Part shown: in pieces, positions 2,686 to 8,566 of the stretch
Position numbering within the stretch: the first letter of the stretch is position 1
How the letters are laid out: each line of letters begins with the position of its first letter
Assembly (NCBI GenBank): GCA_024277285.1
Contig: JAJRVM010000048.1
Coordinates: 1-8,566, forward strand
From: Planctomycetota bacterium
GTDB lineage: Bacteria > Planctomycetota > Planctomycetia > Pirellulales > Pirellulaceae
DNA: 8,566 nucleotides
Direction: 5' to 3'
The notes under the pieces: generated by a model
What the model was told of the DNA's origin: nothing
Database searches by the model: none
Seen by the model: only the letters and a program-made list of their open reading frames with translations
Translations under genes and position numbers: made by a program

Positions 2686-2757
2686 CACGGCCAGCCGTGC
2701 CAGACTTCTTGCCAAGGAGCGGCGAATATGGCACGATATTCGGCACGGCTGCGCCGT
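2686..2757 (+). other. Inverted-repeat cluster upstream of xylA (possible structured leader or REP-like element)
   Basis: A perfect 10-bp inverted repeat pairs CAGCCGTGCC (2692-2701) with GGCACGGCTG (2742-2751). Between the arms are two further hairpins: CTTCTT/AAGGAG (2705-2710/2714-2719, one G-U pair, 3-nt loop) and CGAATAT/ATATTCG (2723-2729/2736-2742, 6-nt loop). Together they could fold as a three-way junction. The outer arms have competing partners: CACGGC/GCCGTG at 2686-2691/2694-2699, and ACGGC/GCCGT at 2745-2749/2753-2757, the latter followed by TTTCCCC. The element fills most of the 136-bp gap between the sulfatase stop and the xylA start. It could be a cis-acting leader or a dispersed palindromic repeat. 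The pairings are seen directly; any function is inferred. Confidence 0.5.
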
Positions 2758-2804
2758 TTCCCCGTATCCATTACGAGAGTTTTGACATAGAAAGAACCTT
2801 GCTC

Positions 2805-4115
2805 ATGTCCGCGTTTCCCGAAGTCAGCAAGATCCAATACGAGGGGCCCGATTCGAAAAACCCGCTCGCTTTCCGCTGGTATGACGAAAACGAGCTAGTT
2901 GAAGGCAAGTCGATGAAGGACCATATGCGGTTCAGCGTGGTCTACTGGCACACGTTCCGCGGAACCGGCGCCGATCCGTTCGGGCCAGGCACGATGCTGC
3001 GTCCCTGGGACGATGGCAGCGAATCGGTCGAAAATGCGTGCAACCGGGCGCGCGCAGCCTTTGAGTTTATCGAGAAACTCGGCGCACCCTACTATGCGTT
3101 CCACGACCGCGACGTAGCACCCGAAGGCGACTCGCTGGCGCAAACCGACAAGAACCTGGATGCCGTGGCCAAGGTGCTCAAGGACGAACAGGAGCGGACC
3201 GGTATCCAGTTGCTGTGGGGAACGGCCAACCTGTTCAGCAACCCTCGTTTCATGCACGGCGCTTCGACGAGCTGCAACGCCGATGCGTTCGCCTATGCCG
3301 CCGCACAAGTGAAAAAATGCCTGGAAGTGACGAAGGAACTGGGCGGCACGAACTACGTTTTCTGGGGTGGCCGCGAGGGGTATCAAAACCTGTACAACAC
3401 CGACATGAAGCGTGAGATGGATCATATGGCCGCCTTCATGCACATGGCGGTCGACTACGCCAAGGAAATCGGCTTTACCGGCCAGTTCCTAATCGAGCCC
3501 AAACCGAAAGAACCGACCAAACATCAATACGATTCGGATGCGGCCGCCTGTATCAACTACCTGCGCGCCTACGACTTGATGGATTCCTTCAAGCTGAACA
3601 TCGAAACGAACCACGCAACGCTGGCCGGGCACACGATGATGCATGAACTGGAGTACGCCGGCATGCAGGGCGCACTCGGTTCGATCGATGCCAACACGGG
3701 CGACATGTTGCTGGGCTGGGATACCGACCAGTTCCCGACCGACTTCTACCTGACCACGCAGTGCATGCTGGTGATCTTAAAGTACGGCGGTATCGTCCCG
3801 GGTGGTGTGAACTTCGATGCCAAAGTGCGGCGCGAGAGTTTCGAGCCCATCGACCTGTTCCACGCACATATCGGCGGTATGGACGCGTTTGCCAAAGGCT
3901 TGAAGATTGCCGCCGCAATCCGCGCCGAGGGCGAACTCGAATCGTTGCTCAAGCAACGCTACGCCAGCTGGGACAGTGGCATCGGCGCCGAGATCGAAAG
4001 CGGCAAGGCCGATTTCAAATCGCTGGAAACCTATATGCTCGACAAAGGCGACATCACGCCCAACACGAGCGGCCGGCAAGAAATGCTTGAGAATCTGATC
4101 AACCGCTACCTGTAA
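2805..4115 (+). CDS. xylA: Xylose isomerase
   Basis: A 436-residue cytoplasmic TIM-barrel isomerase interconverting D-xylose and D-xylulose (in vitro usually also glucose/fructose), with two divalent metals. The full family pattern is present: Trp48; His100 and Asp103 in FHDRDV; Glu231 and Lys233 in [15 protein letters not shown]; Glu267 and His270 in [12 protein letters not shown]; Asp295 in GSIDANTGD; Asp306 and Asp308 in [10 protein letters not shown]; Asp338 in GGVNFDAK. Length and N-terminus match the long class II enzymes such as the E. coli type (about 440 aa). The frame is open back to 2697, but those 36 extra residues overlap the palindromic intergenic element and look non-coding, so the ATG at 2805 ([14 protein letters not shown]) is preferred; its ribosome site is poor (GAAAG-like, about 10 nt upstream). 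No xylulokinase or xylose transporter is in the window, so the pathway context is missing. It lies 136 bp after the sulfatase gene, and a sugar-release/catabolism theme is plausible. Confidence 0.98.
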
Positions 4116-4380: not shown

Positions 4381-4431
4381 ATGATCGTGCCACTGCATGC
4401 TCGAACGCATCCGCAATCCCGATCGATCTCG

Positions 4432-4485
4432 CACTGCCAAACGCATAACCAACACGCCGCCAGCAACTGCACGCAGTGCGAACCG
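4432..4485 (+). repeat. 54-bp direct repeat, copy 1
   Basis: Identical over 54 bases to 4654-4707, 222 bp away. It begins CACTGCCAAACGCATAACC and ends CAGTGCGAACCG. Homology extends weakly upstream: a further 13-bp match (ACGTACGGAATGA) lies at 4372-4384 against 4592-4604, with diverged sequence between. The copy has short internal inverted ends, GCACTGC (4431-4437) and GCAGTGC (4473-4479), so a single copy could form a stem with a long loop. Confidence 0.95.
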
Positions 4486-4653
4486 GCGAACCGCTTTCCA
4501 ATGGCAGGTCGAGCGCCGCTTCACACTGCTCAACTTGGCGTTTTCGTGGTGGCATCGACTTGCGCTTTGTTGGGGGATCTGATACTGGAGGACGTACGGA
4601 ATGAGCAGTGGCACGGACGCGCGCAAACGCATTCCCCATCTCAATCGACTTAT

Positions 4654-4707
4654 CACTGCCAAACGCATAACCAACACGCCGCCAGCAACTGCACGCAGTG
4701 CGAACCG
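4654..4707 (+). repeat. 54-bp direct repeat, copy 2
   Basis: Exact second copy of 4432-4485. The sequence diverges at once on both sides (T instead of G before it; T instead of G after it), so the perfect block is sharply bounded. The same CACTGC/GCAGTG internal inverted ends are present (4654-4659/4695-4700). Confidence 0.95.
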
Positions 4708-4832
4708 TCTTGCGACTCTCCAGACCCCATTCTCAACACCCCACTCCTGCTCCTGACGTTCCAGCCGCCCAAGGCGCACCAGGCCACTACACCCCCCCCC
4801 AACAGAACTAGCAATCCGCGGAAATCTTCTCT

Positions 4833-4997: not shown

Positions 4998-6512
4998 GTG
5001 AAAGCCCAAGCCGCTGCCAGCATTGCGATGTTACTGGTCTTCGCGTTCCAGCTGCAAGCACAAACTCCGGCAACGTCCCCACCCGCCTCGGGAATACAGC
5101 CGCCCGCATCCACTTATGGCACGACCGGTTCGGGCGCCACGTTCCCTACTTCCACGGCGCCAGCAACGGGCACGGCGACCGCCGCGAGCACCCCGGCGTC
5201 TCCCTCGACCGTCCCACCAGCAGCGGCACCAGCCACTGCGCCCCCCCGCCCCGCAGTACCGAATCCAGCTGTGCCTAATCCAGCTGTCGCAAACCCAGCC
5301 CTGCCGGGCGTGGCGCCACCACGGTCGACCGCAGCCGGCGGGTCGGTGGCGGACAGCAGTTGGCATGCGCCGAACGTTGGCCAGTCTCGAGCCACCGCCA
5401 GCCTTTCCTCGCCAGCCCCAGGATCGGCGACCCCAGGATCGGCGACCTCGTCCCTGGACGCTCACAAAGTGAAGCCTGCCGAGGCGGCGGTTCCCGTTCG
5501 CTCGGGCGGCAAGGACATGTTGCCCAACGATCAGGGCCAAGTCTGGCAGCAGTACGACATCAGCGCCTATACGTCGCGAGTCAAGGGCGTGGACAACCCT
5601 CAGCAGGCGATCATCGATTGGATTCTGCGCGAAACGGGGACCGAAATCTGGTTCACTTCGCCGTTGGGCCTGCTGAGCGCGGACAGCAAGACGCTGAGTG
5701 TTTACCATACGCCGGAGATGCAACGTATCGTCGCCGATGTGGTCGGGCGATTCGTTAATGGCACGCAGGCCCCACACGCTTTGAGTTTGCGCGTGGTGGC
5801 CGTCAACAGTCCTGCCTGGCGCACCAACTACTTGAACCGCATGCGGCCCATCTCGGTCCAGACACCTGGCGCCGAGGCTTGGTTGATATCGAAGGAAGAC
5901 GCGGCGTTGATCTTGGCCGATCTGCGCCGCCGCACCGACTTTCGCGAATACAGTGCACCGGATTTGGTTTTCATCAACGGCCAGACGCAAACGATCAACC
6001 AACAACGCCCCAAGAACTATGTTCGTGCCTATCGCCCAAGATTCCAGGGCAACCGCGTGGTGGGCTACGACGCGGAACGTGTCCAATTGCAAGAGGGCTT
6101 CACACTGAAGATCAGCCCACTACTGTCTCAAGACGAACGCACGATCGACACAGTGCTGCGTTGTTCAGTGGACCAGGTGGAAAAACTGGTCTCAGTCGGC
6201 ATCAGCTTGCCCGGCTTCAACGGCCAGATGCAGCGTGCCGAGATTCAGGTCCCGCAACTGGTCAGCTGGCGGCTACACGAGCGTTTTCGTTGGCCCACCA
6301 ACCAGATCCTGCTGATCAGCGCCGGCTTGATCGCCTCGCCCGGCCCGGAACGCCCCACGACATTTGGTATTCCGAACCCCTTCGCAGCCGGTGGCGGACG
6401 CGCCAACGCACTGGTATTCGTCGAAAGCCGCGGCAAAGCAAGCCAGGCGTTGGTCACGCAGCCGACCAACGCAGTCGGCGGCCAAGCCGTCGCGCCAGGC
6501 GCGCGGTATTAA
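4998..6512 (+). CDS. Exported secretin-like protein with long Ala/Pro/Thr-rich linker
   Basis: A 504-residue protein starting with GTG; a strong Shine-Dalgarno AGGGAGG (4985-4991) six bases upstream fixes this start. Residues 1-21 are a Sec signal (hydrophobic ASIAMLLVFAFQLQA, cleavage near AQA). Residues about 22-165 are low-complexity Ala/Pro/Thr/Ser with short repeats (PNPAV, PGSAT), probably a flexible spacer. Residues 181-255 (VWQQYDISAYTSRV, then a helix, then VYHTPEMQRIVADVVGRF) resemble the small N-terminal domains of type II/III secretins. Residues 260-447 resemble a weak secretin core: IINGQT-like VFINGQTQTI (324-333), EGFTLKISPLLSQD (366-379), and QILLISAGLIAS (436-447), which matches the usual GQT-GGLI strand. 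The IPxLGxLF-type signature that normally follows is absent. It may be an outer-membrane pore subunit, a diverged relative, or a secretin-associated periplasmic protein. No other secretion genes are in the window. Family assignment is moderate; export is fairly sure. Confidence 0.8.
   Translation: MKAQAAASIAMLLVFAFQLQAQTPATSPPASGIQPPASTYGTTGSGATFPTSTAPATGTATAASTPASPSTVPPAAAPATAPPRPAVPNPAVPNPAVANPALPGVAPPRSTAAGGSVADSSWHAPNVGQSRATASLSSPAPGSATPGSATSSLDAHKVKPAEAAVPVRSGGKDMLPNDQGQVWQQYDISAYTSRVKGVDNPQQAIIDWILRETGTEIWFTSPLGLLSADSKTLSVYHTPEMQRIVADVVGRFVNGTQAPHALSLRVVAVNSPAWRTNYLNRMRPISVQTPGAEAWLISKEDAALILADLRRRTDFREYSAPDLVFINGQTQTINQQRPKNYVRAYRPRFQGNRVVGYDAERVQLQEGFTLKISPLLSQDERTIDTVLRCSVDQVEKLVSVGISLPGFNGQMQRAEIQVPQLVSWRLHERFRWPTNQILLISAGLIASPGPERPTTFGIPNPFAAGGGRANALVFVESRGKASQALVTQPTNAVGGQAVAPGARY
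5262..5287 (+). repeat. 15-bp tandem duplication in the linker (PNPAV codons)
   Basis: AATCCAGCTGT occurs at 5262-5272 and 5277-5287, one 15-bp period apart; a third, more diverged unit (AACCCAGCC) follows from about 5292. It encodes the repeated VPNPA pentapeptide of the Pro-rich linker. Being a multiple of three, the expansion keeps the frame. Confidence 0.8.
5416..5445 (+). repeat. Perfect 15-bp tandem duplication in the linker (PGSAT codons)
   Basis: CCCCAGGATCGGCGA is present twice in direct succession (5416-5430 and 5431-5445), encoding PGSAT twice. The lack of any difference between the copies suggests a recent in-frame slippage event in the linker of the secretin-like gene. Confidence 0.9.
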
Positions 6513-6693: not shown

Positions 6694-8019
6694 ATGTCCA
6701 CAAATACGCAACGCCGCGTCGTAATTACGGGCCTTGGTCTGATCAGCCCACTTGGCAACACGCCCGAGTCATTTTGGAATGCGCTGAACTCCGGCACCTC
6801 GGGCGTTCGCGCACTGGAAGACCTGCCCGCCAAGCTTCTGGCCATGCCATGGGCTGCGGAAGCACGCGATTTCACCGGCCATATCGACGATTTCGGCACG
6901 CTCGAAAAGACCCAAAAACGGTCCATTCGCAAGGGCATTAAAGTGATGTGCCGCGAGATCCAGATGGGCGTGGCGGCAGCTCAACGCGCGCTGAACGACG
7001 CCGGTCTCAAAATCGGAGATTACGATGTTGAACGAACCGGCGTGCTTTTTGGCAGCGACTATATCCTGTCCGGACCCGACGAGTTCATTGATGCGATGGC
7101 GAGCTGTCGAGATGCAGAGAAACAGTTTGACTACGACCAGTGGGCGGACCAGGGGATCCCGAAAATCACTCCACTTTGGCTACTCAAGTACCTGCCGAAC
7201 ATGCCGGCGAGCCATATCGCGATCTACAACGACCTGCGCGGTCCAAGCAATTCGCTGACCATGCGCGAAGCGTCGGCCAATTCGGCCATCGGTGAAGCCA
7301 CGCATTTGATCGCGCGCGGCAGCGCCGACACAATGATCGCCGGAGCTACCGGCACGCGCGTCCATCCGATCCGCTCGCTGCACGTCGTATTGCAGGAAGA
7401 AATCGCCGCAACCGGAGACGACCCAGCCAAAGCTTGCAAGCCATTTGACAAGAACCGCTGCGGTATGGTGCTCGGCGAAGGAGCTGGTGCGATCGTCCTG
7501 GAATCGCTCGATTCAGCGTTGGCGCGAGGGGCAGCCATCCTGGGCGAAGTGGTCGGCTCGGGATCGTCCGCCGTCATGGATGTTCGCGGAGTAGGCAACC
7601 TGCAGCAAGCTTGTGCGATTGCCATGCGACAGACTTTGCAAAACTCTCAGCTTGCCCCCGAGGACGTCGGGCACATCCATGCCCATGGTGTTTCGACTTG
7701 CCGCGGTGACGCGGAAGAAGCACAGGCCATTGCTGAAGTTTTCGGCAAACGCCACGACCCAATCCCCGTGACGGCAGCCAAGAGCTACCTCGGGAATTCC
7801 GGTGCCGGTTGCGGCGTTATCGAATTGATTGCCAGTCTGCTTGCGATTCAACACGGGAATCTCTTTCCCGTGTTGAACCATACCACTACGGATCCCGACT
7901 GCCCCATTAACGTCGTGACCGCGTCCAACACCCCTCCGGGTGAGTCATTTGTGAACATCAATGTGACCCCCTTGGGGCAGGCCAGCGCGGTGGCCGTGCG
8001 GCGTTTCAACGCGGCCTAA
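6694..8019 (+). CDS. FabF-fold beta-ketoacyl synthase homologue lacking Cys and second His (CLF-like or decarboxylase-like)
   Basis: A 441-residue thiolase-fold protein of the FabF/KAS II family, full length. The N-terminus RRVVITGLGLISPLG (7-21), the GPSNS loop (183-187), IGEA (199-202), FDKNRCGMVLGEGAG (251-265), HAHGVSTCRGDAEEAQA (329-345) and AAKSYLGNSG (361-370) align with FabF motifs. The nucleophilic Cys of the TACTS-type motif is Glu192 here (TMREAS). The first His (His331) and the Lys (Lys363) are kept, but the second His (KSMTGH in FabF) is Asn368 (KSYLGN). The C-terminal NSFGFGG gating loop is replaced by NVTPLGQ (423-429). Normal condensing activity is therefore unlikely. Loss of the Cys is known from chain-length factors (Gln) and KSQ decarboxylases, so a non-catalytic partner of another ketosynthase, or a decarboxylase, is inferred. 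The ATG at 6694 lacks a Shine-Dalgarno, but the frame has a stop at 6628-6630 and no other start between. No ACP or partner synthase is in the window. Confidence 0.92.
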   Translation: MSTNTQRRVVITGLGLISPLGNTPESFWNALNSGTSGVRALEDLPAKLLAMPWAAEARDFTGHIDDFGTLEKTQKRSIRKGIKVMCREIQMGVAAAQRALNDAGLKIGDYDVERTGVLFGSDYILSGPDEFIDAMASCRDAEKQFDYDQWADQGIPKITPLWLLKYLPNMPASHIAIYNDLRGPSNSLTMREASANSAIGEATHLIARGSADTMIAGATGTRVHPIRSLHVVLQEEIAATGDDPAKACKPFDKNRCGMVLGEGAGAIVLESLDSALARGAAILGEVVGSGSSAVMDVRGVGNLQQACAIAMRQTLQNSQLAPEDVGHIHAHGVSTCRGDAEEAQAIAEVFGKRHDPIPVTAAKSYLGNSGAGCGVIELIASLLAIQHGNLFPVLNHTTTDPDCPINVVTASNTPPGESFVNINVTPLGQASAVAVRRFNAA

Positions 8020-8310: not shown

Positions 8311-8417
8311 AAGAAGGGATTCTGGCGGTCCGGCGCTCTTTCTGCCCACGATGTTTCTTGCCCTTTAGGGCCGTGCCGTCGAAGTTGGCTTCTTGGTGGT
8401 TCTCTTGAGAGGGCAAA
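8311..8417 (+). repeat. 107-bp repeat, copy 1
   Basis: Matches 8435-8541 at 104 of 107 positions (differences at 8390, 8408 and 8409), with a period of 124 bp and a 17-bp spacer. It starts AAGAAGGGATTCTGGCGG and ends GAGAGGGCAAA. Internal pairing is possible: GCCC/GGGC at 8360-8363/8368-8371 (loop TTTA), competing with TTGCCCT (8358-8364) against AGGGCAA (8410-8416). It is likely an interspersed non-coding repeat. Confidence 0.94.
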
Positions 8418-8434
8418 GAAGATTAGGGGCAAAG

Positions 8435-8541
8435 AAGAAGGGATTCTGGCGGTCCGGCGCTCTTTCTGCCCACGATGTTTCTTGCCCTTTAGGGCCGTGC
8501 CGTCGAAGTTGGCGTCTTGGTGGTTCTCTTGGAAGGGCAAA
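8435..8541 (+). repeat. 107-bp repeat, copy 2
   Basis: Second copy of 8311-8417, 97% identical. In this copy the long-range arms pair over eight bases (TTGCCCTT 8482-8489 with AAGGGCAA 8533-8540), one more than in copy 1, because of the 8408/8409 differences. The array may continue beyond the right edge of the window, which ends 25 bp later. Confidence 0.94.
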
Positions 8542-8566
8542 AAAGCCGGACAGAGCCGGTCAAATC

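Follow-up and report, generated by a model that had tools for sequence, protein, structure and literature searches.

What does a bacterium gain from a full-length ketosynthase gene whose product lacks the nucleophile Cys? The question is raised by the open reading frame at positions 6694..8019 (+ strand, 441 aa, ATG start, TAA stop) of the window, as we call the whole 8566-base stretch of DNA analyzed. The initial annotation read its product as a FabF homologue with Glu, His and Asn in place of Cys, His and His, and offered three roles: a subunit resembling chain-length factors (CLFs), a malonyl-ACP decarboxylase or a new acyl-ACP-binding function.

The window protein lacks the FabF active site

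The 6694-8019 protein matched Pfam ketoacyl-synt (127.7 bits) and Ketoacyl-synt_C (77.1 bits); its best NCBIfam match was TIGR03150 (FabF), at 284.1 bits and below the curated cut-off of 493.75. When the protein was aligned to solved FabF chains, the column of the nucleophile Cys was occupied by Glu192 (codon 7267..7269; this and all following features of the gene are on the + strand). The first catalytic His of FabF was retained as His331 (7684..7686), as was Lys363 (7780..7782). Asn368 (7795..7797) stood at the second catalytic His, and TPLGQ (T425-P426-L427-G428-Q429, 7966..7980) took the place of the FGFGG gating loop. These positions were placed identically when the protein was aligned alongside catalytic planctomycete FabF genes. 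The FabF alignment confirmed each residue named by the initial annotation, and no other Cys was found at the nucleophile elbow.

With Glu192, Asn368 and TPLGQ, the protein differs from FabF (Cys-His-His with FGFGG), and with Glu192 and Asn368 also from KSQ domains (Gln instead of Cys, and both His). It shares with CLFs a ketosynthase fold without the nucleophile Cys. We term it E-type and assign it to the PLW clade on three features: the PLW(L/M)LKxLPNM motif, which is the signature of the clade and reads PLWLLKYLPNM here (residues 160-170, 7171..7203), its position in the tree, and an insert of ∼20 aa relative to FabF. The alignment places the insert at approximately residues 125-149 (7066..7140); it is common to the window protein and KS2, a catalytic ketosynthase described below, and is absent from the FabF, KS-alpha and CLF rows.

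Upstream, the window encodes an SDR protein (231-1037), a sulfatase (1208-2668), a xylose isomerase (2697-4115) and a protein with a Pro-rich N-terminus and a conserved C-terminal part (4998-6512, + strand). The 4998-6512 gene recurs beside E-type genes at 15 loci including the window, at one of them on the opposite strand. Its product had neither a Pfam nor a PDB match, and a functional link between the ketosynthase homologue and its window neighbors gave no lead. No second ketosynthase and no ACP gene was found within the 8566 bases, so a partner would have to be encoded elsewhere in the genome, as it is in relatives; the contig ends 547 bases past the gene. Among named relatives, the nearest come from Planctomycetaceae and Pirellulaceae assemblies (72 and 71% identity). 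An Rfam search of the window gave no matches. Three repeats were noted: an 8-base tandem repeat with ∼20 copies of ACTCTCCC at 6-160, a 102-base repeat with two copies 222 bases apart (82%, 4399-4722), and a 124-base tandem duplication (96%, 8311-8545) just past the ketosynthase gene.

Glu192 is conserved in relatives

The protein homologue set consisted of the best 120 of 7514 matches, including the window protein itself, and every member had 59% identity or more. Among the 119 other homologues, H331 and K363 were present in all 119, and E192, N368 and P426 in 118 each. Where the database entries for these listed homologues carry a name, it is that of an ordinary 3-oxoacyl-ACP synthase. At 56 GTDB loci, the Glu192 column read E in 47, D in 3, A in 2, C in 2, R in 1 and G in 1, and both C rows (L055, L056) are ordinary ketosynthases. 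The N368 column held N in 33 of these loci, S in 11, H in 4, D in 4, L in 1, V in 1 and gaps in two; the H331 column was His in 36 of 56. In a sister group (L032, L033, L036-L041, L043, L045, L046), Glu192 and Lys363 were kept, with Cys, Ser or the like at His331 and Ser at Asn368. The Glu is the most conserved odd feature of the protein, and the Asn and the retained His are not fixed in distant relatives.

Sixty genomes related to Blastopirellula marina, whose own genome carries L021, were searched, and 58 gave a match with 48-62% identity. The two exceptions were a truncated match (G023, 62% over 235 residues) and a genome with only a 42% match (G037); among the 60, the match of G007 had a stop inside its frame. 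The PLW.L..LPNM motif, searched as DNA, was present in all 60 genomes, in two copies in 46, one in 12 and three in 2. Across 74 aligned members, 26 columns were invariant, and R79, K80, K83 and R87 of the KxxKRSIRKGIKVMCREIQM stretch were invariant or nearly so. Among the matches listed in plasmid searches, only ordinary ketosynthases (31-49% identity) appeared. Simple mutation of the window copy, an alternative raised by the initial annotation, is rejected on the presence of Glu192 in the best-listed homologues and on the matches in related genomes.

The second PLW copy is a paralogue, T2, which likewise lacks the Cys: in 15 T2 rows the Cys column read E in 11, D in 2 and S in 2. Of 20 regions examined for a second paralogue, 16 held T2 and one (L094) held KS2; in three no ORF had been picked, and two of these later showed T2. 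In the T2 of the B. marina group (L075:7549-8811, L087, L089), Ser stands at the Cys column with Asp one place before, and both His are kept. Given the Ser and the two His, some activity of this T2 is conceivable and may exist.

KS2, an active ketosynthase, ends an operon-like run

Ten ketosynthase domain matches were found in B. marina. KS2 (L061 of B. marina) is a Cys-His-His enzyme with the same ∼20-residue insert as the window protein, and Cys, His, Lys and His were retained in 33 of 33 KS2 rows. In 19 of 20 regions around it, KS2 ends an operon-like run of a FabZ-like protein, an ACP (128-135 residues) and a second FabZ-like protein, with FabG present in 4 of the regions. The ACP of the KS2 operon (L105:6102-6494, L118:5559-5945, L119, L122, L099) has 127-137 aa with a C-terminal extension, and the context of its attachment Ser is AESID, versus ADSLD in the ordinary ACP of L006. 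KS2 is not always in an operon, since ACP and dehydratase genes were seen in one of 8 KS2 regions from genomes found by profile.

A GH3-type adenylating enzyme is encoded after one deep operon (L118:9084-10856), and an aminotransferase gene lies before the operon in L118 (L118:3063-4160) and L141 (L141:3451-4554). These and the other neighbors of the KS2 operon (sulfatase-modifying factor, DUF362, seryl-tRNA synthetase, Competence domain and hydrolase genes) are too narrowly shared to name the product.

The PLW gene and KS2 co-occur and lie in tandem in deep relatives

In 246 Planctomycetota genomes drawn evenly from the phylum, the PLW motif was present in 41 (once in 25, twice in 16) and the KS2 motif in 15, all of them among the 41 (Fisher test, p ∼2e-13, a guide only, because the genomes are related by kinship and the counts are not independent). 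The exact KS2 motif misses true KS2 genes. In eight genomes without it (G084, G196, G252, G263, G062, G094, G155 and G230, the genomes of L130-L133 included), profile and residues recovered a true KS2 in 8 of 8, with the insert, EQEP or EQDP, and Cys-His-His. By motif, by profile matches checked by residue, and by adjacency, KS2 was present in 39 of the 41 PLW-motif genomes, in one as a fragment at a contig edge; in the remaining two the contig ends there. The KS2 profile scored 488-857 bits in 10 of 10 PLW genomes tested. In 60 of the 205 genomes without the PLW motif its best score was 454.8 bits, and the six best matches were FabF proteins without the insert.

Gene order was examined in all 25 single-copy PLW regions. 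In 19 of them the PLW gene lies upstream of KS2 on the same strand, directly in 16 and within ∼1 kb in 3, and in 14 of the single-copy deep regions dehydratase, ACP and dehydratase genes precede the PLW gene. Two further contigs break off just past the PLW gene and carry the same three genes upstream of it, and in the other four regions (L130-L133) KS2 is absent near the PLW gene and present elsewhere in the genome. The search of related genomes for a catalytic ketosynthase and an ACP, proposed by the initial annotation, was rewarded: KS2 accompanies the PLW gene in most deep regions, with an ACP gene upstream in many.

All 67 PLW-clade rows had W162 and a Lys or Arg at residue 165, but the motif search itself had contributed 23 of these rows; residue 165 varies in other PLW members, L152 having Cys. 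In the same column Glu stands in 26 of 33 KS2 rows and Lys in 5 of 5 FabF rows. If this column lies at the dimer interface, the difference could favor a mixed pair.

Loss of the catalytic site can be followed in living members of the PLW clade

The PLW genes of L122-L125 and L142, next to an active KS2, still encode Cys-His-His with FGFGG. In the PLW gene of L118, Asp replaces the Cys while both His and FGFGG persist, and the other operon copies mostly have Glu, with eroded His positions: among 18 whole-operon pseudo rows, 8 have His at H331 and 11 have His or Asn at the position of the second His. In 62 rows without Cys, the column read E in 47, D in 7, A in 2, S in 2, and R, G, N and Q in 1 each, so that 54 of 62 were acidic.

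In an 84-row tree, the PLW clade (44 rows), KS2 (26 rows) and both together were each supported at 100/99. All 39 rows without Cys formed one clade (100/100), so one loss of the Cys suffices; the five catalytic PLW rows branched first, and E-type and T2 were sister groups (100/100 together). The CLFs grouped with KS-alpha, apart from the PLW clade (98/94, and 96/86 in a 70-row tree). When the insert and PLW columns were removed, the four long-branched CLF rows moved into the pseudo clade, a shift that in our reading would reflect long-branch attraction. Omitting the CLF rows restored the earlier picture, and support was then 100/99 for PLW, 100/97 for PLW with KS2 and 94/93 for the pseudo clade. 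AU tests on the 70-row tree rejected neither a pseudo and CLF clade (p 0.241) nor a pseudo and FabF clade (p 0.094). Profile A1 scored FabF (4ls5_A) at 319.8 bits, actinorhodin KS-alpha (1tqy_A) at 272.0 bits and the CLF (1tqy_B) at 193.0 bits. Kinship with CLFs by descent is unsupported by the trees and the profile scores, though it stays conceivable, the CLF rows being placed unstably.

A proposed non-catalytic beta subunit of KS2

On balance, we lean towards a role for the window protein as the beta subunit of KS2: without catalytic activity of its own, it would form a pair with that enzyme and shape the acyl channel of KS2. Four observations lead us there: (i) the catalytic site is lost while the protein is conserved; (ii) the PLW clade and KS2 share descent; (iii) the two genes lie in tandem in deep relatives; and (iv) they co-occur. 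From these we infer physical pairing, control of the chain and a chemical product. KS2 is favored as the partner because descent, insert, deep-lineage gene order and co-occurrence all point to it, and for the window protein itself this choice comes from its relatives, since the window holds neither KS2 nor ACP.

The ancestor would have been an active Cys-His-His ketosynthase in tandem with KS2, in a small fatty-acid or polyketide-like operon encoding a FabZ-like dehydratase, an ACP of ∼130 aa, sometimes FabG, a second FabZ-like dehydratase, the PLW ketosynthase and KS2. After loss of the Cys, the PLW protein would have been retained as the partner of KS2. KS2 would then carry out condensation, and the pseudo-subunit would supply its half of the dimer interface, together with a basic stretch facing the ACP and the PLW segment close to the acyl channel of its partner, thereby limiting or shaping the chain that KS2 builds. 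We take the R79/K80/K83/R87 stretch to lie where FabF meets its ACP, and the PLW motif presumably lies where FabF lines the acyl pocket of its partner. In the relatives of the window, mostly Pirellulaceae, the gene has moved out of the operon, and duplication has given two beta-type paralogues, E-type and T2.

In known KS/CLF pairs, an active ketosynthase and an inactive one form an obligate heterodimer, and the channel at the interface determines chain length (PMC12664062). By analogy, the window protein fits this mode of working: it has lost the site but retains the fold and the basic stretch on the ACP side. For an acidic residue close to the cavity there is a precedent in another system, where Asp113 of Iga11 reportedly promotes the release of beta-ketoacyl-ACP (PMC8358021); Glu192 might conceivably act alike.

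Alternative partners and functions

The E-type protein could instead be the beta subunit of the primary FabF, in a heterodimer of the housekeeping fatty-acid pathway, with T2 staying with KS2. E-clade genes directly follow fabF on the same strand, with a gap of 0.25-0.42 kb, in 7 of the 95 regions examined (L006, L030, L031, L047, L055, L149, L156), the gene order being plsX-fabD-acpP-fabF-E or fabD-fabG-acpP-fabF-E; in L022, L024 and L144 the distance to fabF is 2.6-3.4 kb. This placement favors FabF as the partner of the E-type paralogue. No fabF, fabD, plsX or ACP gene was found in the T2 regions of the alignment set, and T2 competes as beta subunit of KS2. However, sequence kinship, the insert and the ancestral pairing all lie with KS2, and most E-clade loci, the window included, show no FAS gene, several of their contigs being short. 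An E-clade gene behind fabF has either moved there for co-expression or now serves FabF. Taken together, we regard a FabF partnership as unlikely.

Decidedly less probable is that the E-type protein pairs with T2, or with itself, as an acyl-ACP-binding platform or sensor without a condensing partner. Exactly two PLW motifs in 46 of the 60 B. marina-related genomes (three in 2, one in 12) would suit such a pseudo-pair, and the near-invariant basic stretch would suit a platform or sensor. The single PLW gene beside KS2 in deep lineages, however, indicates that the family did not begin as two dead subunits.

The second role offered by the initial annotation, that of a KSQ-like malonyl-ACP decarboxylase, would have the protein supply acetyl-ACP, with Glu for Gln and with His and Asn as in KAS III. 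A C-H-N site is given for FabH-like priming enzymes (PMC12664062), and E-H-N resembles it with the Cys replaced; H331 and N368 are also near-fixed in the 119 best-listed homologues. In the L032-L046 type, however, which keeps Glu192, both have been lost (C or S at H331, S at N368), in the whole-operon pseudo rows the two His positions are eroded, and all 12 Pirellulales E rows have V or L in place of the pantetheine Thr of HGTST. Because both His are lost in Glu-keeping relatives, we rank decarboxylation low and consider it very improbable.

Decay of a gene without function, to which the lost catalytic site and the in-frame stop in G007 might point, hardly deserves credence given the 48-62% matches in 58 of 60 genomes, the 26 invariant columns in 74 members and the full-length 441-aa frame, whose openness the initial annotation had rightly held against decay.

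Pairing with KS2 as a beta subunit, the reading that we favor, might be part of a larger picture, which we put forward tentatively as possible though doubtful. Planctomycetota would have evolved their own KS-alpha/KS-beta system independently of the polyketide CLFs, with living intermediates (both partners active, Asp, Glu). In Pirellulaceae and their kin the beta subunit would have been freed from the operon and duplicated into exchangeable subunits, and this gene moved behind fabF, one cell fitting KS2 and perhaps FabF with different silent partners for different chain lengths.

So far, CLFs have been the main source on how a catalytic ketosynthase becomes a silent partner, and their ancestors no longer exist. 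In the PLW clade, active, half-changed and dead forms still occur within a common gene order, so that each step is open to separate testing. Nearly all the B. marina relatives searched have the gene (motif in 60 of 60), yet where it carries a name, this is that of an ordinary 3-oxoacyl-ACP synthase, which misleads metabolic models. The KS2 operon suggests that planctomycetes make a second acyl product, as yet unstudied.

Comparison with known systems

That the pattern is not a nameable standard class, as the initial annotation stated, needs amending: it is already in print for one R. baltica paralogue, without an assigned role. Rattray et al. (2009) list Glu163/His298/Lys328/Asn333/Pro392 for NP_866153 (RB4527), the same pattern as in the window protein, and state that its function must differ (PMC2649909). 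Their treatment of the R. baltica FabF paralogues gives residues and tree grouping and proposes no role, and the section on paralogues describes no KS2, operon or intermediates. A further R. baltica paralogue, NP_865682 (RB3714; Asp163, Ile328, His333), may by its residues correspond to T2 (PMC2649909). A full-text literature search, with subscription journals mostly outside it, returned no paper on the PLW/KS2 pair; the residue pattern is in print, and the active sister, the operon, the intermediates and a proposed role were not found in the literature searched. KS-CLF pairs have been counted in 14 phyla including Planctomycetes (PMC10132072), and that count may include some of these operon pairs.

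Compared with FabF (KAS II), the window protein has kept the fold, length, His331, Lys363 and GEGAG, but has lost the Cys, the second His and FGFGG. The aryl polyene pair ApeO-ApeC likewise joins an active ketosynthase to an inactive one as a heterodimer, and its pathway is reducing and includes a dehydratase (PMC8358021), but ApeC is about half-size, with one thiolase fold, whereas the window protein is full length. The rhizobial acpXL-fabZXL-fabF1XL-fabF2XL-lpxXL cluster for very long chain fatty acids also includes a dedicated ACP, a FabZ and a pair of neighboring ketosynthase genes (PMC5613085). We liken them by gene content alone, having found no report there of one ketosynthase being inactive, and no lpxXL-like gene was recognized among the annotated neighbors of the KS2/PLW loci.

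The closest likeness in mode of working is to CLFs. As with the actinorhodin CLF (1tqy chain B), a Cys-less subunit of ketosynthase fold is encoded, in deep relatives, beside a Cys-His-His ketosynthase and an ACP gene. The window protein has Glu at the Cys position, whereas the three Streptomyces CLFs compared have Gln, and an Azospirillum KS-like neighbor has Arg. In contrast to CLFs, it shares its insert with KS2, the operon of its clade has two FabZ-like dehydratases and no cyclase, and in the relatives of the window the PLW gene is unlinked from KS2. The CLF-like subunit of the initial annotation is supported in its way of working, with KS2 adjoining in 19 of 25 deep regions and the two forming sister clades; descent from CLFs is unsupported, and the Gln is lacking. 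Planctomycetes appear to have evolved the silent-partner role separately from the silent partners of antibiotic synthesis.
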